From Campylobacterales bacterium (GTDB taxonomy: Bacteria > Campylobacterota > Campylobacteria > Campylobacterales > Sulfurimonadaceae), in the NCBI GenBank assembly GCA_026390115.1, contig JAPLGO010000021.1, positions 52,406 to 116,405 of the forward strand: a DNA stretch of 64,000 nucleotides, in the 5' to 3' direction. A program made the position numbers and the translations under genes. A model generated the notes under the pieces. The model did no database searches. It saw nothing but the letters and a program-made list of their open reading frames with translations, and had not been told where the DNA came from. Shown one piece after another: positions 18,008-64,000 of this stretch. Position 1 is the stretch's first letter. Every line of letters starts with the position of its first letter.

Positions 18008-18829
18008 TTAAGATTTTTTAGCAATTTTTGTAATTGCTTCAGTGTTCATATCATCCATCTGAGCACTCATGGCTTTTTGGTACATTCCAACTAAACGATT
18101 TGTCTCTATCATCTGAGTCATCATTTTTACAGCATTCACATTGCTTTTTTCTATAAAACCTTGTGTTACTGCACCGCTATTCTCCAGGCCTATAAACTCT
18201 GCACTCTCTCCGTATGCAAAAAGGTTGTCACCCTCTTTTTTTAGCAGTGATTTATTGTCCGGCTGTACAACCATGAGTTTAGCAGCAGGGGTAAAGGTTA
18301 AAGCATTTGAACTGTTTGTGCTTATTTGACCATCTTTATCTACATTAACCGTGCTATTTTGTGTCCCTAAAGTGATACTGTTTCCACTCTGATAATAGTC
18401 AGCAGGTAATACTTCATAACCCTGTTTTGTTACAAGCTTACCTTCGTCGTTCATTGAAAATGAACCATCTCTTGTAAGTCTCACACCTTGTGGAGTTTTT
18501 ACAGCAAAAAACATGTCATCTTTTGAGAGAGCAAAATCCAGAGTATTCTCTGTTTTTTGCATAGAACCGACAGAGAAATCAGTATAAGAATCAACTATCT
18601 GGGGAGATTTTGTCATAGCTCTGTTTAAAAATTGTGCTCCCTCTTTTGTCTGATTCGCTATAGGCAACTCATCTCTTGCCTCTTTATAGAGACGCATAAA
18701 ATCGCCTACTACTAAATTATCTTCTTTAAATCCTGCCGTGTTAACATTAGCAAGATTATTAGAGATTGTATCTAAACGATTAAACTGAGCAACCATACCG
18801 GCAGCTGAAGCATAATAACCTGTTTGCAT
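18008..18829 (-). CDS. flgF: Flagellar proximal rod protein, FlgF (FlgG2) type
   Basis: A 273-residue rod protein. The start MQTGYYASAAGMVAQFNRLD with the SNNLANVNTAGFKEDN motif, and the end VTQGFIEKSNVNAVKMMTQM are typical of FlgF/FlgG. The middle domain differs from the downstream flgG, and in Campylobacterota this gene is often called flgG2 or flgF. It should form the proximal rod. Its ATG lies about 23 bases after the predicted sigma-54 start site. Confidence 0.88.
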   Translation of the reverse strand: MQTGYYASAAGMVAQFNRLDTISNNLANVNTAGFKEDNLVVGDFMRLYKEARDELPIANQTKEGAQFLNRAMTKSPQIVDSYTDFSVGSMQKTENTLDFALSKDDMFFAVKTPQGVRLTRDGSFSMNDEGKLVTKQGYEVLPADYYQSGNSITLGTQNSTVNVDKDGQISTNSSNALTFTPAAKLMVVQPDNKSLLKKEGDNLFAYGESAEFIGLENSGAVTQGFIEKSNVNAVKMMTQMIETNRLVGMYQKAMSAQMDDMNTEAITKIAKKS

Positions 18830-18860
18830 ACATACCCTTTTTATAATATTTATGAGTGAC

Positions 18861-18878
18861 TAGCAAAGATTGTTCCAA
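18861..18878 (-). promoter_or_regulatory. Sigma-54 (RpoN) promoter for flgF-flgG
   Basis: On the minus strand the site reads TTGGAACAATCTTTGCTA. GG at 18875-18876 and GC at 18863-18864 are exactly 12 bases apart, the required -24/-12 spacing, with close matches to TTGGCAC and TTGCW. Predicted start near 18851. RpoN control of rod and hook genes is known in Campylobacterota. Confidence 0.8.
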
Positions 18879-18939
18879 ATTTTGAATAAAACTATATTTC
18901 TTTTTTTCTCTGTAAAAGCTATATTTAATAACAACTGGG

Positions 18940-18945
18940 TATAAT
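18940..18945 (+). promoter_or_regulatory. Probable -10 box for rpoD
   Basis: TATAAT inside GGGTATAATCC, 42 bases before the rpoD ATG. It runs opposite to the sigma-54 promoter of flgF. Confidence 0.55.
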
Positions 18946-18987
18946 CCACTCTTTTAAAATTCTTAAAACGACGGAGCTTGCCTAAAA

Positions 18988-20847
18988 ATGAGTGCAAAAG
19001 TAACAGTAAAAGATCTCAATAAAGCCATAGAAACACTCTTCACAAATGTAAAAGCAAAAGATTGTTTAACCTACGAATCATTAATAGACCTTTTTGATAA
19101 ACAGCCCACAGCGGCACAAGCGAAAAACATTTTTAAACTTGCCCAAAAAAATAAAACTTGTCTTTACACCTCTTCAGAGCATGCAAAAAAACTCAATGAT
19201 AAAGAAGCAGATGCAAGAAAAGATGCCCAAAGAAAGATGCTTCAAAATAATGACACAGATAAATTTGATATTCTTAAAGAGCATGAACTGCTTGAATGGT
19301 CTCGCTCCGATTCACCTGTTCGTATGTATCTCCGTGAAATGGGGCAGATACCTCTTTTAACAAAAGATGAAGAGATAGAGATATCTAAAAAGATAGAAGG
19401 TGGAGAGAGTATTATTATTGATGCCATCTGTTCCGTTCCTTACTTAATAGAGTTTATTTTAGACTACAAAGAGCCTTTAATTAACCGTGAAAGAAGAGTC
19501 AAAGAGCTATTTAAAAGCTTTGAAGATGAAAAAGACGATGCAGAAGAAAAAGATGACGACAGCGATGAAGAGGCGGAAGAGCGACCTCCGGTAGAAGATA
19601 AAAGCAGGGTTGAAAAAGTAACTACAAGCTTTAAAGCACTCGAAAAAGCGAAAAAAGAGTGGATTAAACTTGAAGAGAAGGCTCCTGAATATTTAGAAGT
19701 CGAGCTCACAGAAGACATTGTAAACTACTTTTTAAATGTTACTTTTAAAAAATCTATTCTTAAAGAGAAACTGCTAGATTTAGGGCCAACTTCAAAACTG
19801 ATAAATGAGCTTGTTCGCGCTATGGAGACAGCTTTGAGAACGGATGAGGGTTATGATAAAGAGCTAAGAAGATTGGAGTATAAACTTCCACTTTTTAATA
19901 CTACACTCAAAGCAAATCATAAAATTTTAGTAGAAAAGATTTGTGATTTAAACAAAGAAGATATTGCAAGCATGGTGCCTGAGGCTACAATGGTAAGTAC
20001 CTATATGGAGATTAAAAAACTTGTTCAAACAAAAGAGGCTTCAAAAAACAGTTTTGACATGGAACCTGAAAAACTGGCAGATATTTTAGAACAGATTAAG
20101 AGAGGTAAAAATATCTCTGAAATCTCTAAAACAAAAATGGCAAAATCAAATCTCAGACTTGTTGTCTCAATCGCAAAAAGATATACAAACCGCGGATTGC
20201 CTTTCCTTGATTTAATTCAAGAGGGAAATATAGGTCTTATGAAAGCGGTTGATAAGTTTGAGTACCAAAAAGGATATAAGTTCTCTACTTATGCTACATG
20301 GTGGATTCGCCAAGCTATCTCTCGCGCTATCGCAGATCAAGCCAGAACTATCCGTATCCCGATTCACATGATAGAAACTATCAACCGAATTAATAAAATC
20401 ATGCGTAAACACCTTCAAGAGCATGGCAAAGAACCGGATGTTGAAACAATTGCAGAGGAGGTTGGCTTATCTGTTGAAAAAGTTAAAAATGTCATTAAAA
20501 TTACAAAAGAACCTATCTCTCTTGAAGCACCAATCGGAAGTGAAGAGGATGGAAGATTTGGAGATTTTATCGAAGATAAATCATCTCTTTCACCATCCGA
20601 TGCTGTACTTAAAGATGATTTAAGAGTACAAATTGAGCATGTATTAGAACAATTAAATGAGAGAGAAAGAGCCGTTATCAAACTTCGTTTTGGAATTATG
20701 GATGATGAATCCGACAGAACGCTGGAAGAAATCGGTAAAGAGTTGAATGTAACAAGGGAGAGAGTTCGTCAAATCGAATCAAGCGCTATTAAAAAGCTTA
20801 AACACCCTAAAGTTGGGCGAAAACTTAAAAACTATATAGAAGAATAA
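18988..20847 (+). CDS. rpoD: RNA polymerase primary sigma factor
   Basis: A 619-residue sigma-70. Region 1.1 covers about 1-90. Region 1.2 is [20 protein letters not shown] near 110. An acidic non-conserved insert follows ([13 protein letters not shown] near 180). Regions 2.1-2.4 ([20 protein letters not shown] near 390, [20 protein letters not shown] near 435) and region 4.2 ([20 protein letters not shown] near 580) bind the -10 and -35 elements. It is the housekeeping sigma. The gene is divergent from flgF-flgG and followed after 13 bp by a protein of unknown function. Confidence 0.97.
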
Positions 20848-56978: not shown

Positions 56979-58070
56979 ATGAAAGCAGTTATTTCTAGTA
57001 AGAGAACTCCAACAAAAACCGAAGGAGTTTTTTACAAAGATATTTTTAACGACAGTGAAAAATCAGTTGATAAAAAATATATGATTAGATGGATTGATGA
57101 AAATGGTAAGAGTAGATTAAAAACTATTGGGAATTATTCAGCAGGTATTCGAGAAAAATACTGTAAAGCTAAAAGAGATGAGATTATTACAAAAATAAGA
57201 CTGGGGGAAGAGTTACCATCCCTTGCTAAACCAAAGCAAACTATGACTATATTCGATATGTCAGAACTTTATTTTGATTATAAATCTGCAACGGTTAAAG
57301 ATATTGAAAAAGAAAAAAGAAGATTTAACAATCATCTTAAAAAAACTATCGGTCATATTAAATTGCAAAATTTTTCAGAAAAAGATGCTTTAAAACTGCA
57401 ACAGAATCTAAAAGAAAATTTAGCCGTAGCTAGTGTTAGGCATTTACTCGTAACATTAAATGCTATGTATAAGTATGTTGTCACTCAAAAATTATATAGT
57501 GGTGATATTCCTACATCTAATATTCAACATGAACAACTAAACAATATTCGAGAACGCTACTTAACTCTTGATGAAATAAAGAAGCTGTTAACGGTTTGTC
57601 AAAATACCAATTATGAAATATATTTATTTGTAAAATTATCACTCTCTACAGGTGGTAGAGTTGGAACTATAGCAACTATCAGAGCTATGGATATTAAACC
57701 AAATAATAATTCACTTATATTATCAGACCATAAAAACAATGATACTTACACTGGTTTTTATAACAATGAGCTAAAAGAACTTCTTACACAAAGGATGAAA
57801 GAATTATCAGCCACTGATACGATAATTAGACTAGCAAGAAGTTCAATAACCTATAAACTTGGTTCAATTATGGATGTATTATTTAATCAATTTATAGACG
57901 ATGATGATAGAAAAAATAGGGTTGTTCCTCATACATTAAGACAGATAGCTGGTACACCTATTTTAACTATACAAAAACTTATGAATCACAAATCAATTGA
58001 AATGACCTTGAGATATGCAAAACTTGCTCCTAATCAAGGGATGGAAGCAGTAAAAAATTTATATTCTTAG
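56979..58070 (+). CDS. Tyrosine recombinase (island integrase), probably internally deleted
   Basis: 363 residues. An N-terminal arm-binding region is followed by a SAM-like core-binding domain (about 85-175) and a catalytic domain. Arg I lies in LSTGGRVGTIATIR near 225, the box II start HTLRQ near 317, the later His in MNHKSIEMTLRYAKL near 340 and the nucleophile Tyr near 350. Family members usually read HTLRHTFAS-LAI-GTPI; here HTLRQ runs straight into IAGTPILTIQKLMNH, so about eight residues of the active-site helix are missing in frame. That may inactivate the enzyme. It is at the left edge of the accessory island, with repeat heptamers just upstream. Confidence 0.8.
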   Translation: MKAVISSKRTPTKTEGVFYKDIFNDSEKSVDKKYMIRWIDENGKSRLKTIGNYSAGIREKYCKAKRDEIITKIRLGEELPSLAKPKQTMTIFDMSELYFDYKSATVKDIEKEKRRFNNHLKKTIGHIKLQNFSEKDALKLQQNLKENLAVASVRHLLVTLNAMYKYVVTQKLYSGDIPTSNIQHEQLNNIRERYLTLDEIKKLLTVCQNTNYEIYLFVKLSLSTGGRVGTIATIRAMDIKPNNNSLILSDHKNNDTYTGFYNNELKELLTQRMKELSATDTIIRLARSSITYKLGSIMDVLFNQFIDDDDRKNRVVPHTLRQIAGTPILTIQKLMNHKSIEMTLRYAKLAPNQGMEAVKNLYS

Positions 58071-58221: not shown

Positions 58222-58240
58222 GAGAGGCTTAAAACCTCTC
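58222..58240 (-). terminator. Terminator of recoded gene B
   Basis: On the minus strand GAGAGG-TTTTAAG-CCTCTC is followed by TTTTTTTAT. The loop contains the TAA stop of the frame starting at 58558. Confidence 0.75.
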
Positions 58241-58558
58241 AAATTCACTTTGTACTTTTTCAGATGTGAACCAAATATGACTGTCTATATAATTTGTATA
58301 GATTTCAAATTCATCACTTTCGTCTTCAAATAACTCTTTATTAGAATCAATAAACTTGTAAGCTATTTGAGATAAAGCTTCATAGATGAAATAGTTAATA
58401 TTGCGGTCAAACTCTTTTCAAAAGTTCATCTCTACATTTTCATAAATTTCATCAAAATCTAGTTTATGTTCTTCCATAAGATTAACTAGAAATTCAACAT
58501 CTAAATATCAAGCTCATAATAAATTTCTTGATAAATCAACCAATATATTTTTCTTCAT
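58229..58558 (-). CDS. Recoded gene B (TGA read as glycine), unknown function
   Basis: Under the standard code this frame is broken by three TGA codons (58514-58516, 58508-58510 and 58418-58420). Under translation table 25 (TGA = Gly) it is one open frame of 109 residues from ATG to TAA: MKKNILVDLSRNLLGAGYLD, then VEFLVNLMEEHKLDFDEIYE, ending VQSEFERF. It has no TAA, TAG or frameshift inside and is followed by a terminator that overlaps its stop. Trp is also written TGG (in SHIWFTS). The protein is acidic and helical, with no motif I know. In a standard-code host only the first 14 residues would be made. Confidence 0.7.
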
Positions 58559-58609
58559 AATCACAAAAATTAAAAAATAAAGTGATTTTCGTTAAAAAAA
58601 TAACAATAA

Positions 58610-58647
58610 AAAAATCAAGGTGGAGACTTTGTACTACCTTGATTTTT
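58610..58647. terminator. Terminator between the two recoded genes
   Basis: AAAAATCAAGGT and ACCTTGATTTTT form a perfect 12-bp stem around a 14-base loop, with a T run on the minus strand. It lies downstream of recoded gene A and its extension. Confidence 0.75.
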
Positions 58648-58712
58648 GATATTTTATTTTTTAGAATAAATCAGTTTATTTTGAATGTTACTAACGATGA
58701 ATTGGTGTATTC

Positions 58713-58931
58713 TTATTGACTATTTGCTAATGTATATAACTCTTCTTTTAAATCTTTTTTCATTTCTTCAGGGATTGGCATTTGATTCGATAACATTTCT
58801 ACGACCATATCCAAAGTTCAATTTTGTTTTGCATCTTTTAGTAACTTCATTATTTCTTCCTGCGACTGTTGAATCATTTCAGGAGTTAGTTTATCTAATG
58901 ATTCTTGTTTAAAAATTATATCATTTAAAGA
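58713..58931 (-). pseudogene. In-frame extension after the TAA of recoded gene A
   Basis: The frame of gene A continues past its TAA for 72 codons to another TAA at 58713-58715. The stretch is coding-like (SLNDIIFKQESLDKLTPEMI and MPIPEEMKKDLKEELYTLAN) and has one TGA at 58818-58820, in QN-G-TLDMVVEML. Either the TAA at 58932 is a nonsense mutation in a 338-residue gene, or this is a separate small gene whose start I cannot place. The terminator at 58610 comes after it, which favours one transcript. Confidence 0.5.
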
Positions 58932-59729
58932 TTATCAACCTGTTGTTCTAAAATTTACTTCCGCAATTTCATTTTTTATAATCTTTACTAAAGTCTTTCA
59001 TTCTTTTTTGTAAACAAAATATGTTTCAAAAGAAGCTTCAAATTTAGAAATATCTTCGAAATCAAATTTCTCTAGTTTTAATCATTTTTTTCAAATAAAT
59101 AACATTCATTTTGTATTAGTTTTTCTATCAATAACTAATTCTTTAGAAAATTCCTCTCATCTTTCTCAAGTTTCATCTGCCTTTATTGTTATTCATCAAA
59201 CCTTTATTCAGAATGGTCAATTAAATAAGTCATTCATTTTTTTATCTTCATATTCTCAATCAATAAACTCTACTATTTCACATCCATCTTCAGGGTCTTT
59301 AGAAATAACCATAGACATTAAAATATTTTCATCTGGATTTTGAATAAAATGACTCATTATTTCCGCTTGAACTTGTTCTTTAGATTTTTGTTTTTCTTCT
59401 TCTTTATTTAACTCACTAATCTTTAAACTTCGTGCTTCAATATTTTGTGAAGATTCTATTTTTAAAAAGTTATTATTGAGTTTATCAAAATCAAAAAGAC
59501 TCTCCGCCCCATTTCTTTTCATAATGATCATAGCCCTATAAACCATATGCATTGCTTGGTCTTCACGATATTTTTTAAGCTCAGATAGATGTTGATCAAT
59601 AGTATTATTAAAGAGTTCTTCATTCTCTTCTCTATATCTTTTAAAATAATCTTTAATTACCTCTATTTCATATTCAGTGATTTTTAAATTATCAAAATCA
59701 CTACTACTATTTTTATTATTTAATCACAT
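58932..59729 (-). CDS. Recoded gene A (TGA read as glycine), unknown function
   Basis: One open frame of 265 codons from the ATG at 59727-59729 to TAA at 58932-58934 if TGA is sense. It holds 13 in-frame TGA codons, the first at codon 2, and no TAA or TAG. With TGA as Gly the second half reads NDLFNGPFGIKVGGITIKAD, then NTKGMLFIGKKGLKLEKFDF and VYKKEGKTLVKI, typical glycine contexts. Only three glycines use GGN and no Trp uses TGG. With Trp instead, composition would be abnormal. The first half is acidic and helical. An in-frame TAA just before the ATG bounds the start. No known domain is recognised. A standard-code host cannot make it. Confidence 0.75.
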
Positions 59730-59841
59730 ATGTTCTTGTTAAATATTAATGTACTGTGTATCCATTTTCTCATACTTTTTATTATTTTGCAAATTTTTGA
59801 TATAAAAATAAATAAATAAAGATATAATCATTTAAATAACT

Positions 59842-59859: not shown

Positions 59860-62526
59860 TTGGGAGAATTACACTTGAGTTATGCAACACCCCATTATGA
59901 TAAAGTTTACTTTAACTTTGAAGATGAAGTCTCAGAATTAATAAGTAATTTAAATACAAAGAAAAATCAAATATATAATATATATCCTAAAGATTATGAT
60001 GTAGCGCAAAAAATTGTTACACATTCTCTTAAGATATTACCAAAAATAAAAAATTTGGATATATATACATTTTGGTTTAATTTCAACAACAATGATTACA
60101 TATCATTTGCACAACAATTAAAAATTTTCTTAATAAAAATATGGAGAAACAATCTATTTAACTATAGCCAAATAGAAGAAAATATACTATCCATGTTGTT
60201 ATTAGAAGATAATATACAAAAATTCTCAAAACTAAATTTCAGTGCTCTATTCTCCAAATTATATAATAAACAATTTATAATTGTTATCGATATATCACAT
60301 AAAGAATTAGATAGCTTTCAAAAGAATAAAATAGAAGAAATTTTTCATTTAATTGAGTGCATTAAAGATTTAAAAGAAACTTTATGTATTGATACCATTA
60401 TATTAAATAACTATTCAAAATATGATGCTAAGAACATACAATTAGATATAAATAATCAAACTATAAAACCTTATTTAGAAATGCTGAATAGTGTCAATAC
60501 CTATCAACAGATTGATTCTATAAATATTGTAAGTAGTAATAATTTTAATAAACTTATTCATATAATCAATCCAATCGTAATGCTGAATCAAACAGTTTCT
60601 CATGAAATTATAAATTATATTGCTAGCACTGAAAGTAATATAGAAAATGAGATTACCAATCTTTTAAAAAATAATTTGATACAACATAACTTTAATAGAG
60701 ATGGATATAATTTAACCAAAGATTCTATGAAAACTTTTAAAAAAAATAATGTGAATGAAATGGATATAATTACGGCAAATGGCTCAAAAATATTATCTTT
60801 TCAATCTCCTTATCAATTACTAGATAATGATTTTTCACTGCAAACATTGAAAAAAGCGCATAGAGAAAATTTTATGCTTATCGATGTATTTTCTTCATTA
60901 TTTACTAGTAAAACTAAACAAAATCATTTAGAAAAAGAACTATATGATATTTCACTAAGTCTATCCAATGAAGTAATTAATATACTAAATGTAAATAATG
61001 AATATCATACTAAAATACTCCTCACCTATTTCAGTCAATTATTTTTAAAAGATTATAAACTAGAATACAAGTATTTTAAACTATTAGAAAATTTAACTTA
61101 TGGCTTAAGTAATTTTATTGAAAATGTTTATAAATATGATAATAATAAAAAATACAATATTTCAAGATGGATTACTAATCTTGGTTATATTTACGATGAA
61201 ATGAAATATACAACAAATGATAGAGAAAAAATATATTATAACGCTGCCCAAAGAATTGGTAAAATCTCCGATTTTACCAATGAAGTAATTGAGTTAAAAA
61301 CGAAATACACATTAGGCTGGCAATTAAAAGATTCTAACCAAATGCAAAAAGCTGTTGATACTTTTTTAGAAACGGCAAAAAGATTTTTTTATATGTTTAA
61401 AAATAATATCTTCGGAAAACCCGTTTATTTAGTACATGAAATGTACTGGTTAGGTTACATCATATCAAAAAAAGAAAACATTGAATCTAGTTTTTTAGAT
61501 GATAAAATCTTAGAAAATATTTTGTTAGAACATCCATTGTTTTATCATTCTGCTGATGTTGATATGTTTTTACATGAAAAATATAAACATATAAATTTTT
61601 ACCCTAATTCTACATATAATATATTTTTTTGTGATTATGATTTATATACAGCTATAGTTGTCTCATACCGCATATTACAAAAAAAATTGAATGTAAAATT
61701 GATTCTAGTAAATAAAAAAGAAGATATTAAATTAGGTAAAAACAATATAATTTTAGGTGCACCAGATTCCCCGAATGGTATTGGAGATTTTCTTAAACAA
61801 AATGATAAAGATTTAACAGCTTTATATCAAATTAGATTATTTGAGAATTTTTTTGAAATATCAGAAAATGATAATTTTATGGTATTAATGGGATGTGGTC
61901 TAGGAAGTATGATTGATGGTTTAAACCAACTATTAGAAAAAATTGATGAAGGAAAAAACGATATGGATTTTGGAATATTTTTACCATTAATGCAACAAGC
62001 TGGTAATAAACTTTGGGAAGTAACATTAGATAGAATAGGAGATATTGTCAAAGATAAATTAAAAGGTTCTACTGTTAAAGAAGAAAATGTTGAAAAAGAA
62101 ATTTCAAATTTAAAAAATACATCTAATATAGATAGAAAACAGGAAATAGAAATATTATTAAATATTGATAATCCAATGATTCAAAAAGCATTCAGAGAAA
62201 CGATTTTAAGTAACGATGTTATTTTAAATATTTTCAAAAATGTATCTCAAACTGAACTTCGTACATTTGACGAAATAGAAAATTTCAATCAAATTTCCTT
62301 GAGTCTAATAGATTTCACAAGAAAACATGCAAACGCATCTATTGAGGATAAAAATGATTTAGCAAAAATAAGAGAGAATTTATTAAACATACAGTCAAAA
62401 TTAAACAATATCAAAAGAAATAGACATGCTTTCGACTATTCAGAATTGAATAAAATTAATATTGAGCAAGCAGATATAGTCAATAATGCGATAGAAGATT
62501 ACACCCATTTAATGTCATTTTTATAA
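59860..62526 (+). CDS. Large AT-rich protein of unknown function
   Basis: 888 residues, much more AT-rich than the chromosome and rich in N, I, K and L. I chose TTG at 59860, 7 bases after AGGAT; TTG at 59875 after GGGAG is the alternative. The N-terminal 180 residues (YTFWFNFNNNDYISFAQQLK and KQFIIVIDISHKELDSFQKN) recall the nucleotide-binding fold of STAND proteins, but no Walker A is visible. A Rossmann-like part follows near 620-690 (NNIILGAPDSPNGIGDF). The C-terminus is helical. No membrane segment or signal. It overlaps the convergent glycosyltransferase fusion by 6 bases. Its glycines use GGN and TGA is absent, so it is not part of the recoded cassette. Function unknown; a defence role is only a guess. 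Confidence 0.6.
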   Translation: MGELHLSYATPHYDKVYFNFEDEVSELISNLNTKKNQIYNIYPKDYDVAQKIVTHSLKILPKIKNLDIYTFWFNFNNNDYISFAQQLKIFLIKIWRNNLFNYSQIEENILSMLLLEDNIQKFSKLNFSALFSKLYNKQFIIVIDISHKELDSFQKNKIEEIFHLIECIKDLKETLCIDTIILNNYSKYDAKNIQLDINNQTIKPYLEMLNSVNTYQQIDSINIVSSNNFNKLIHIINPIVMLNQTVSHEIINYIASTESNIENEITNLLKNNLIQHNFNRDGYNLTKDSMKTFKKNNVNEMDIITANGSKILSFQSPYQLLDNDFSLQTLKKAHRENFMLIDVFSSLFTSKTKQNHLEKELYDISLSLSNEVINILNVNNEYHTKILLTYFSQLFLKDYKLEYKYFKLLENLTYGLSNFIENVYKYDNNKKYNISRWITNLGYIYDEMKYTTNDREKIYYNAAQRIGKISDFTNEVIELKTKYTLGWQLKDSNQMQKAVDTFLETAKRFFYMFKNNIFGKPVYLVHEMYWLGYIISKKENIESSFLDDKILENILLEHPLFYHSADVDMFLHEKYKHINFYPNSTYNIFFCDYDLYTAIVVSYRILQKKLNVKLILVNKKEDIKLGKNNIILGAPDSPNGIGDFLKQNDKDLTALYQIRLFENFFEISENDNFMVLMGCGLGSMIDGLNQLLEKIDEGKNDMDFGIFLPLMQQAGNKLWEVTLDRIGDIVKDKLKGSTVKEENVEKEISNLKNTSNIDRKQEIEILLNIDNPMIQKAFRETILSNDVILNIFKNVSQTELRTFDEIENFNQISLSLIDFTRKHANASIEDKNDLAKIRENLLNIQSKLNNIKRNRHAFDYSELNKINIEQADIVNNAIEDYTHLMSFL

Positions 62527-63798
62527 TGCTATTTTTGCTCTATTAATAGTGTAAAATTGATATTCTTCGTAAGCTTCTGCAAATTTTACACTAGATTTTA
62601 ATCCATTTAAACTATCAATTTTCGTAACCATATTTTTCCAATATTCGACATCTTGTGATTCAAAATTTTCAATTAACTTCAATTTCATATCCATAAAATC
62701 AGTTATATCAATATAAATATTAGGATTAAAAACGCTATGATTTTGTTGAAAATAACTATTGCTCATCAAGAGTTTATCAGGTAAATGTAATCTTTTCATT
62801 TTTAAAAGTGCTGAGCTGACAATATCAAAACAAATTTTATGATCAATATGTATATCATCTTTATGATGGGTTATTAAAATATTTGGTTGTACTTTCATTA
62901 TCAAATTGTATAAAAAATCTATATTTTCTTTATTATAAAAGTTAGTCAGTTCATTATTATCCATAAAATAAAGCTCAATATTTGGAAACAATTTTTTAGT
63001 TTTTAAACTTTCATGCTTTCGTTTTTTATCCGATGTCGCAATTAGAATATTTACTCTATTATTATTTAAAGAATATTTTGAAATCAATCCACCACACCAT
63101 ATTTCTGCATCATCTGGATGAGCTAAAAATAATAAAATAGATTTATCAAACTTTTTTTTATAATCAATAAAAGAAATTAATTCATACGACATATTAATAT
63201 AATTCAAGACAGGTTTTAATGTATCATAAACAGTTCCTAAATAAACTTGAGATACTTTATAACCTAGTCTTTTTATGCTAATTAAAATATCTAAATCTAA
63301 TGCAAAAGTGTTTTGCATATGCTCTATATTTAATAATGATTTATCAAATAAATAAATTCCACTCAATGGCATTTTAATATATTTTAATTCTGGATAATTG
63401 TACTGAATCAATGGTTTTGCAACTAAATTAGTTACGGGCATGCTGTCTTCTTTATTGTCCCAATATGTTTTAACAAGAGAAGATTCTTCAAGTATCATAT
63501 TGTTATATAAGTTTTCTACCCATTCCTTATTTGGATTTCTAATATCAGCATCAATTTTAAAAATCAATCTATTACTAGCTTTCAATATCCCTTTTTTCAA
63601 AGCATAACCAAATCCAATATCTTTACAAAATACAACTTTTGCATTATTTTCTTTAGATATTTTTGCAGTATTGTCACTAGAATTATTATCTACAACAATA
63701 ATTTCCGATACATATTTTGATTTTTTAAATTCATTTATAATTTTTGCAATTGTTTTTTCTTCATTTAATGCAGGAATTACAATACTAATTTTTTCCAT
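62521..63798 (-). CDS. Glycosyltransferase family 2-PIG-L deacetylase fusion
   Basis: 425 residues with two enzyme domains. Residues 1-215 are GT2: ISIVIPALNEEKTIAKIINE, VDNNSSDNTAKISKEN and the DxD motif in FKIDADIRNP near 85, most like glucosyl-3-phosphoglycerate or mannosylglycerate synthases. Residues 222-425 are a PIG-L/LmbE deacetylase: LFLAHPDDAEIWCGGLISKY and ITHHKDDIHIDHKICF, which together hold the zinc ligands. It could transfer a sugar and then remove an acetyl or other acyl group from it. AGGAT within the inverted repeat precedes the ATG. The gene follows the second recombinase by 19 bp on the same strand. Confidence 0.85.
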   Translation of the reverse strand: MEKISIVIPALNEEKTIAKIINEFKKSKYVSEIIVVDNNSSDNTAKISKENNAKVVFCKDIGFGYALKKGILKASNRLIFKIDADIRNPNKEWVENLYNNMILEESSLVKTYWDNKEDSMPVTNLVAKPLIQYNYPELKYIKMPLSGIYLFDKSLLNIEHMQNTFALDLDILISIKRLGYKVSQVYLGTVYDTLKPVLNYINMSYELISFIDYKKKFDKSILLFLAHPDDAEIWCGGLISKYSLNNNRVNILIATSDKKRKHESLKTKKLFPNIELYFMDNNELTNFYNKENIDFLYNLIMKVQPNILITHHKDDIHIDHKICFDIVSSALLKMKRLHLPDKLLMSNSYFQQNHSVFNPNIYIDITDFMDMKLKLIENFESQDVEYWKNMVTKIDSLNGLKSSVKFAEAYEEYQFYTINRAKIAL

Positions 63799-63799
63799 G

Positions 63800-63815
63800 A
63801 TAATATCCTATTATC
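63800..63815 (-). repeat. Right copy of the 16-bp inverted repeat
   Basis: On the minus strand it reads GATAATAGGATATTAT, identical to 59842-59857 and in opposite orientation; five further bases beyond a two-base mismatch (AATAA) also match. It lies between the recombinase stop and the glycosyltransferase ATG. Confidence 0.6.
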
Positions 63816-63817
63816 CA

Positions 63818-64000
63818 TTATTCAACTACAAAATTAAAATTCCTTCTTGGGTGCTTCGTATTCAATATTTTCTTTTGCTGTTTCATATTAACTTTAGTAT
63901 AAATTTGAGTTGTAGAGATGGATGAATGCCCTAGCATATGTTGAATATATCTTATATCAACCCCCTCTTCTAAAAGTAAAGTTGCGAAACTATGTCTAAA
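63818..64000 (-). CDS. Tyrosine recombinase, C-terminal part, cut by window edge
   Basis: The last 60 residues of a XerC/D-like recombinase. [20 protein letters not shown] is the box II region (second Arg and His), [20 protein letters not shown] has the conserved His and the nucleophile Tyr. The tail is [17 protein letters not shown]. Here the box II helix is complete, unlike in the recombinase at 56979. It is upstream of and co-directional with the glycosyltransferase fusion. Its front part lies beyond the window. Confidence 0.88.

Follow-up and report, generated by a model that had tools for sequence, protein, structure and literature searches.

Two TGA-interrupted genes near the end of a contig

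The stretch of DNA analysed here (the window, 64,000 nucleotides; G000:C24:52406-116405) belongs to the genome of a Campylobacterales bacterium of the family Sulfurimonadaceae (G000; GCA_026390115.1; 2.64 Mb in 39 contigs, 2.4% contamination), and its right edge is the end of contig C24. Within it lies a cassette (58229-59738) with two minus-strand open reading frames (ORFs), ORF-A and ORF-B, in which TGA is a glycine codon, although the chromosome around them uses the standard code. Relatives of these two genes recur in a family of integrative mobilisable elements of Campylobacterota whose genes are divided between two genetic codes, and we propose that these elements shuttle between Campylobacterota and cells of the Gracilibacteria/Absconditabacteria type, which use code 25.

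ORF-A (58932..59729, minus strand) begins with ATG at 59729, ends with TAA at 58932-58934 and has 265 codons, 13 of them TGA; ORF-B (58229..58558, minus strand) has 109 codons, three of them TGA. So delimited, neither frame contains a TAA, a TAG or a frameshift, which bears out the claim of an initial annotation that both are broken by TGA alone. None of 1000 dinucleotide shuffles gave a TAA/TAG-free frame of the length of ORF-A (268 codons from stop to stop), the longest such frame being 187 codons when the whole cassette was shuffled and 196 codons for ORF-A alone. The frame of ORF-A nevertheless runs on past the TAA for 72 further codons with one TGA (58713..58931, minus strand). This C-terminal part is uninterrupted in the relatives L055 and P0231, and the window copy of ORF-A thus has one in-frame TAA. 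With TGA read as glycine, glycine makes up 16 of the 265 residues of ORF-A and 3 of the 109 of ORF-B, and TGA supplies 16 of the 19 glycine codons of the pair. ORF-A shows a weak, sub-threshold Pfam match to the ATP-cone domain (E 0.00033; 21.6 bits against a cut-off of 25.8), and the structure model of ORF-B is confident and all-helical, with no match in the PDB.

Upstream of ORF-B lies a strongly conserved leader (58559..58682, minus strand), a long imperfect inverted repeat of ~110 nucleotides around a CAAGGT...ACCTTG hairpin. It is kept upstream of all eight copies compared, even where the identity of the ORF-B protein falls to 54-66%, its folding z-score is -4.1, and it has no match in Rfam. 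A terminator-like hairpin is found 3' of ORF-B (58222..58240, minus strand) by consensus match, with no evidence of function. Of the terminators claimed for each frame, the one after ORF-B was thus recovered, whereas none was called for ORF-A, though A and B are separated by the long conserved hairpin.

Standard termination at TGA in the host was claimed as well, and indeed, of 51 ORFs that were called mechanically in the window to the left of the island and encode 100 amino acids or more, 8 end in TGA. GC content is 22-29% across the island, in recoded and standard-code parts alike, against 33-43% in the adjacent host DNA; being equally low in both parts, base composition does not set the cassette apart within the island. 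That an island of a standard-code Campylobacterota chromosome contains a foreign code is borne out by the results below.

Further copies in Campylobacterota genomes

ORF-B with in-frame TGA is also found on two other contigs of G000. Contig C37 holds a second A-B pair, in which B is 95% and A 39% identical to the window protein, and C31 holds a third ORF-B, 66% identical to that of the window. On C31 there are also genes for a large serine recombinase, interrupted by 15 TGA (Pfam matches: Resolvase, 2.5e-18, and Recombinase, 2.7e-13), and for a CcrM-like N6/N4 DNA methyltransferase with five TGA (L010:12721-13470; Pfam, 1.4e-36), as well as another recoded gene, gene3. These recoded genes adjoin genes for MobC, a relaxase and VirD4, each of which has just one TGA, at the end of its frame. 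From their sequence, we take two standard-code ORFs beside the methyltransferase to be a PIN-type toxin-antitoxin pair. ORF-A, ORF-B and gene3 have no assigned biochemical role.

ORF-B was sought in 228 genomes of the same family, in 104 genomes of Arcobacteraceae (the family of carrier G572) and in a phylum sample of 397 genomes overlapping the other sets; all genomes searched are Campylobacterota. It is present in 5 of the 228 and 4 of the 104, and in 6 of the 397 when two weak stop-free matches, set aside here, are included. In total, 11 copies were found in nine genomes (eight besides G000), every copy with in-frame TGA. The named records are Sulfurimonas metagenome-assembled genomes (MAGs) and one Aliarcobacter MAG (G584:C88, 18,736 bp), and PLSDB holds no ORF-B. 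B and gene3 adjoin MobC, relaxase and VirD4 in C31, G572, G584, G609 and G620; lone ORF-B copies occur in G063 and G113, and in G134 (G134:C14:3647-5290, L068) ORF-B is split by a 416-residue transposase-like ORF, presumably of the IS256 type. In G106, which shares with G000 one genus (g1, the Sulfurimonas genus), a gene for transfer RNA (tRNA)-Asn (L054:1119-1193) follows ORF-B by ~270 bp and is a possible attachment site of that element.

TGA stands for glycine

Aligned DNA copies of six gene families were inspected for the codons that stand opposite TGA. Apart from TGA itself (350, counted from both sides), the partners are GGN in 68 cases and TGG in none, the remainder being mostly codons for N (39), S (32), D (29), K (26) and E (22). 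Counted by alignment column, 127 columns contain TGA, and GGN also occurs in 31 of them and TGG in 0. Codon 15 of ORF-B is an example: it is TGA in the window and C37 copies, GGT in C31, and TGA, GGT, GGG, GGA or AAA across all copies. The amino acid composition agrees with this assignment. In 35 recoded frames picked as TAA/TAG-free (10,210 codons), there are 390 TGA, 142 GGN and 52 TGG codons, so that reading TGA as glycine gives 5.2% Gly, while reading it as tryptophan gives 1.4% Gly and 4.3% Trp. TGA accounts for 72-81% of the glycine codons of the recoded genes in G609, G620, G572 and G584, and for 46% in C31. In alignments with relatives of solved structure, the TP901-1 integrase has glycine at four of the seven alignable TGA positions of the G609 recombinase (and V, A and K at the others), and CcrM has glycine at two of five in the C31 methyltransferase.

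Most database relatives hold W at the TGA positions, which would fit a donor with code 4 (TGA = Trp), such as a mollicute-like bacterium or a recoded phage. Tryptophan-bearing homologues, named by the initial annotation as the sign of that code, are thus present in the databases, but W alternates with G within the TGA columns: in the recombinase relatives (120 of 235, among the matches listed), W occurs 946 times and G 373 times in the 15 TGA columns, while a TGG column of the same proteins stays W (107) or F (12). Together with the absence of TGG opposite TGA and the composition above, this leaves the tryptophan reading with next to no chance of being correct. The W residues are apparently best read as the product of gene calls made with translation table 4. 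Public protein sets (P0005-P0109 and P0110-P0229) hold these families with Trp at TGA positions.

Pfam scores change little when TGA is read as G, W, R, A or C; the recombinase is uninformative, and the C31 methyltransferase scores 127.2 bits for G and A and 123.1 for W, differences so small that the scores alone cannot choose between the readings. Taken together, the results assign the recoded genes to genetic code 25 (TGA = Gly), as had been claimed from the window alone.

We also considered whether selection might act for the stop itself at certain ORF-B codons. In database relatives of ORF-B, the ratio of W to G is 96:2 at codon 17, 95:4 at codon 47 and 37:45 at codon 15. On a tree built without these columns from the 94 of 105 relatives that were long enough, W/G changes number 2, 1 and 2 at codons 15, 17 and 47, and such a lock is therefore unsupported.

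Selection on the recoded genes

dN/dS (the ratio of nonsynonymous to synonymous substitution rates) was computed with TGA read as glycine. For 10 copies of ORF-B, it is at most 0.41 in 44 of 45 pairs. Recent pairs, with dS of 0.12-0.21, give 0.16 (window and C37), 0.11 (window and G106) and 0.10 (C37 and G106). The recombinases of C31 and G620 give 0.25, and a pair of paralogues in the element of G572 (L073) gives 0.29. These values point to ORF-B, at least, as a working protein whose work lasted until recently. The single recent transfer of a small cassette that was first envisaged does not agree with these results: the genes recur in an element family, their copies diverge to identities as low as 54-66%, and they are still under selection at the protein level.

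Complete elements bounded by direct repeats

Direct repeats delimit four complete elements, all from Arcobacteraceae; in three of the four the repeats lie at tRNA-Arg or transfer-messenger RNA (tmRNA) genes. They are the elements of G609 (27.8 kb; 42-bp direct repeat of the 3' end of tRNA-Arg), G620 (29.1 kb; 20-bp direct repeat of a tmRNA end), G572 (31.3 kb; 21-bp direct repeat) and G530 (14 kb; 12-bp repeat of a tmRNA end, with a 23-bp repeat inside it), the latter two in single-contig genomes. One end of each element carries a tyrosine integrase in the standard code; on the same strand, at a distance of 1.3-2.4 kb, lies a recoded large serine recombinase, with 20 TGA in G609, 24 in G620, 23 in G572 and 22 in G530. 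The recombinase of G609 (Pfam Resolvase, 2.5e-23; Recombinase, 2.3e-10; PHROG integrase, 4e-61) is of a more distant type, 23-28% identical to the other element recombinases; that of G620 matches the PHROG integrase family at 8.6e-50. A profile (A8) built from the recombinases of C31, G620, G572 and G530 has, at E up to 1e-50, its sole matches in 3 of the 104 and 1 of the 228 genomes, the 3 of the 397 in the phylum sample being among these, and all matches carry 15-24 TGA, none being in the standard code.

Standard-code mobilisation genes are found in all four complete elements, the relaxase being broken in G530, and B, gene3 and long A-type genes with TGA in three of the four. A recoded HD-domain protein has 13 TGA (Pfam, 1.9e-13); other recoded proteins have no clear match. 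By their flanking repeats and by the integrase, relaxase and coupling protein found in these relatives, the elements are classed as integrative mobilisable elements. No VirB4 or mating-channel gene is apparent in the ORF lists, no search having been aimed at VirB4. For 16 island and element proteins compared with PHROGs, the functional matches were to integrases, glycosyltransferases, an invertase or transposase and, weakly, membrane proteins; no phage structural protein was among them.

In the element of G572, two paralogous recoded membrane-type proteins (L073:16682-17404 and 18545-19234; 9 and 13 TGA) are 66% identical, and each adjoins an opposite-strand standard-code ORF; those two ORFs resemble each other.

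Gracilibacterium DNA falsely joined to a Sulfurimonas contig during assembly or binning, a possibility raised at the outset, is suggested by the position of the window at a contig end of a 39-contig genome with 2.4% contamination and by the fact that several carriers are MAGs. The 42-bp tRNA-Arg and 20-bp tmRNA-end duplications flank whole elements, however, two carriers are single-contig genomes, and the gene order is similar in separate assemblies. The duplications and the single-contig carriers rule out such a join as a general account, and we give an artefact of this kind a very slight chance.

The window copy as one end of an element

A standard-code tyrosine integrase of 363 amino acids lies beside the cassette (56979..58070, plus strand; Pfam Phage_integrase, 1.6e-13; PHROG integrase, 3e-34). 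It is 41% identical to the element integrase of G134 and 40, 37, 34 and 32% identical to those of G530, G620, G609 and G572, and is very likely the integrase of the element itself. On the other side of the cassette stand an 888-residue standard-code ORF (59860..62526, plus strand), which matches no family above cut-off, a standard-code gene with glycosyltransferase family 2 and PIG-L domains (62521..63798, minus strand; Pfam, 8.9e-18 and 1.1e-14) and, cut by the contig end, part of a standard-code Xer-like tyrosine recombinase (63818..64000, minus strand; Pfam Phage_integrase, 1.8e-14), 87% identical over 60 residues to that of the G584 element. From the host DNA inward, the order is integrase, B, A, the opposite-strand 888-residue ORF, glycosyltransferase/PIG-L and Xer-like recombinase; reversed, it matches G584, with its Xer-like recombinase, cargo, long opposite-strand ORF, A and B. 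The window copy is, by strong inference, one end of an integrated mobile element. Because the far end and the attachment repeat would lie beyond the contig, integration of this copy is deduced from its relatives.

Between the Xer-like recombinase and ORF-A there appears to be a variable cargo slot (window 59860-64000; L077:7132-11171 in the Aliarcobacter MAG element), filled in the window by the 888-residue ORF and the glycosyltransferase/PIG-L gene and in the Aliarcobacter MAG element by ORFs of 620 and 421 residues, with identical orientation patterns. Elsewhere in G000, 73 bp (G000:C18:74272-74344) are 77% identical to the DNA directly past the window integrase and are possibly the trace of another element.

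Decoding capacity of the carriers and the link to Gracilibacteria

All 41 tRNAs found in G000 bear ordinary anticodons, and among the 51 found in G572 the sole UCA anticodon belongs to a tRNA-Sec located off the element. The search for a tRNA-Gly with anticodon UCA, suggested by the initial annotation, thus came back negative in G000, as it did in G572, the two genomes checked. ARAGORN detected no tRNA gene within the bounded elements, nor any on C31 or C37; the tRNA-Arg, two tmRNAs, the tRNA-Asn near ORF-B in G106 and the tRNA-Met of G134 belong to element borders or to host DNA and have ordinary anticodons. The prfB gene, which encodes release factor 2 (RF2), is full length in all six carrier genomes searched. 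With RF2 present and no tRNA-Gly(UCA) found, we conclude from gene content that the genes are in code 25 and the host cells are not. Near the tRNA-Sec of G572, ARAGORN labels a tRNA-Pyl with anticodon CUA (G572:C1:891353-891442, L123).

An undetected suppressor might nevertheless let Campylobacterota read TGA as glycine under certain conditions, in which case the genes would be regulated and not foreign. This would account for selection within Campylobacterota, and recoded phages are described as using suppressor tRNAs (PMC10746230). The tRNA sets of G000 and G572, the bounded elements devoid of tRNA, the intact RF2 in every host searched and the 24 TGA in a single gene of 448 codons all speak against conditional decoding at home, which we find improbable.

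One relative of the recombinase, P0150, shares 57-61% identity with four element recombinases, and NCBI attributes it by name to a Candidatus Gracilibacteria MAG. A link to Gracilibacteria, as first suggested, is thus backed by one named relative and by the code itself. Decoding of TGA as glycine is reported from proteomics of a BD1-5 bacterium, with SR1 and Gracilibacteria cited in the same work (PMC4032931); Patescibacteria are reported with parts of type IV secretion systems and a minority of relaxases (PMC12102498); Gracilibacteria are reported to share sulfidic spring biofilms with abundant Campylobacterota (PMC10811913); and a groundwater study gives no clear host link for Gracilibacteria (PMC11452946). 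We found no report of attachment between Gracilibacteria and Campylobacterota.

An element with genes for two kinds of cell

Both gene sets appear to stay functional in the same elements, and this is most simply explained if either kind of cell makes use of the elements. We consider it reasonably probable that the TGA-containing genes of these two-code integrative mobilisable elements are translated in a partner of the Gracilibacteria/Absconditabacteria type and not in the Sulfurimonas-type cell; the second, code-25 host is inferred from the code and one named protein. In Campylobacterota, the tyrosine integrase would integrate the element, and MobC, relaxase and VirD4 would prepare it for transfer, which might reach the partner by mobilisation or by DNA uptake. 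In a code-25 cell that receives the element, the cassette seen in the window would become readable, and the serine recombinase, the methyltransferase of C31, A, B and gene3 would be expressed, their products perhaps serving integration, protection or maintenance. Selection in both cell types would keep both toolkits.

Several observations weigh against this proposal. In searches that covered Campylobacterota genomes, the element is known from this phylum alone, and its tie to Gracilibacteria consists of one named protein and the code; in recombinase trees, P0150 is a neighbour and not a member of the clade that unites the four element recombinases (support 0.88 with 43 tips, 0.999 with 52 tips), joining at 0.991. 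If the standard-code genes were tuned to both codes, avoidance of TGA stops would be expected, yet 12 of 77 standard-code genes of the elements and 12 of 78 genes in host stretches end in TGA; the stops are not avoided, and these genes are therefore not tuned in this way. Nor do recoded and standard-code genes clearly diverge together, Mantel r ranging from -0.61 to 0.34 for five elements, a comparison of low resolution, and the two gene sets may reassort between elements. Within the sample, the G530 element shows no B, A or gene3, the relaxase loci of G203, G156 and G050 have no clear recoded gene in the sequence examined, and the window, whose contig ends inside the element, contains no serine recombinase or relaxase. 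Two of the four complete borders are less sure, because in G572 the second repeat copy extends into the beginning of the integrase ORF, and the repeat of G530 has only 12 bp. The dN/dS values include 1.17 for one partial ORF-B pair, and their upper range is high for A-type genes (0.32-0.91 for long, 0.38-0.76 for short ones) and for gene3 (0.15-0.82 in the 13 of 15 pairs that allowed its computation). Finally, the tRNA searches scored 150 of 183 first-look candidates in G000 and 150 of 344 in G572, so an odd tRNA could be missed.

Alternatively, the elements might repeatedly acquire code-25 genes from attached ultrasmall bacteria and carry them as passengers that are never expressed, the signal of selection being left over from the donor. 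The lack of any detected means of reading TGA as glycine in the hosts agrees with this, as do the in-frame TAA of the window ORF-A, the split ORF-B of G134 and the lone B genes of G063 and G113. Passive carriage is harder to reconcile with the shared neighbourhood of B and gene3 with the mobilisation genes in five carriers, the recoded serine recombinase standing near the integrase in all four complete elements and the dN/dS of 0.10-0.16 among close copies within the Sulfurimonas genus, and on balance we think it rather doubtful, if a serious alternative.

A further account would keep the genes silent at home as a Trojan cargo that becomes active only in a code-25 recipient, for example against an attached parasite. 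Silence at home and readability in code 25 alone would follow directly from the codon content. The recoded genes that can be named, however, are recombinases, a DNA methyltransferase and an HD-domain protein, and a PADLOC scan of 10 proteins matched only the methyltransferase; we consider this account unlikely.

Returning to the proposal of an element used by two kinds of cell, a bolder version of it is that the genetic code itself acts as the host sensor, and that the element changes toolkits as it passes between an ordinary bacterium and an ultrasmall partner, with no regulator involved. A Campylobacterota cell could make nothing but the products of the standard-code integrase and mobilisation genes; on entry into a code-25 cell, the TGA-containing serine recombinase, methyltransferase and accessory genes would become active, and translation of those standard-code genes whose stop is TGA would continue past their ends. 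We put this forward tentatively, as a possibility that falls somewhat short of an even chance. If it holds, the presence of an element would mark Campylobacterota partnered with Gracilibacteria-type bacteria.

Should the proposal of two hosts be correct, codon reassignment would be no barrier to exchange between ultrasmall and ordinary bacteria, and the elements would offer both a natural case of code-gated gene expression and a way to recognise by sequence the hosts of Gracilibacteria and Absconditabacteria, about which little is known and which would here be members of the Sulfurimonas family and Arcobacteraceae. Many such proteins in public sets apparently carry Trp in place of Gly through table-4 calls.

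Comparison with known systems

The recoded genes resemble those of Gracilibacteria and Absconditabacteria and their prophages (table 25) in the use of TGA as a major glycine codon and in the recoded serine recombinase family, but they sit in standard-code chromosomes, interleaved with the standard-code genes of the element. Stop-recoded genes within a standard-code host are also a feature of crAss-like and Lak phages, which, according to PMC10746230, often carry suppressor tRNAs; none was found in the present elements. The same source describes phages predicted to meet both bacteria of the candidate phyla radiation (CPR) and standard-code bacteria, which likewise unite one element with hosts of two codes. 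There, either code can read each of the nine co-targeted Gracilibacteria phages, and two of five co-targeted Absconditabacteria phages are TGA-dense, whereas here each code has its own genes.

With integrative mobilisable elements, the present family shares the mobilisation module (tyrosine integrase, MobC, MobA/VirD2-type relaxase and VirD4) and integration at tRNA-Arg or tmRNA ends with direct repeats; it differs in having a second recombinase, of the serine type, and several accessory genes written in the other code. The integrative mobilisable element as a kind is already known; in the open-licence literature searched, we found no description of an element split between two codes with one recombinase in each.

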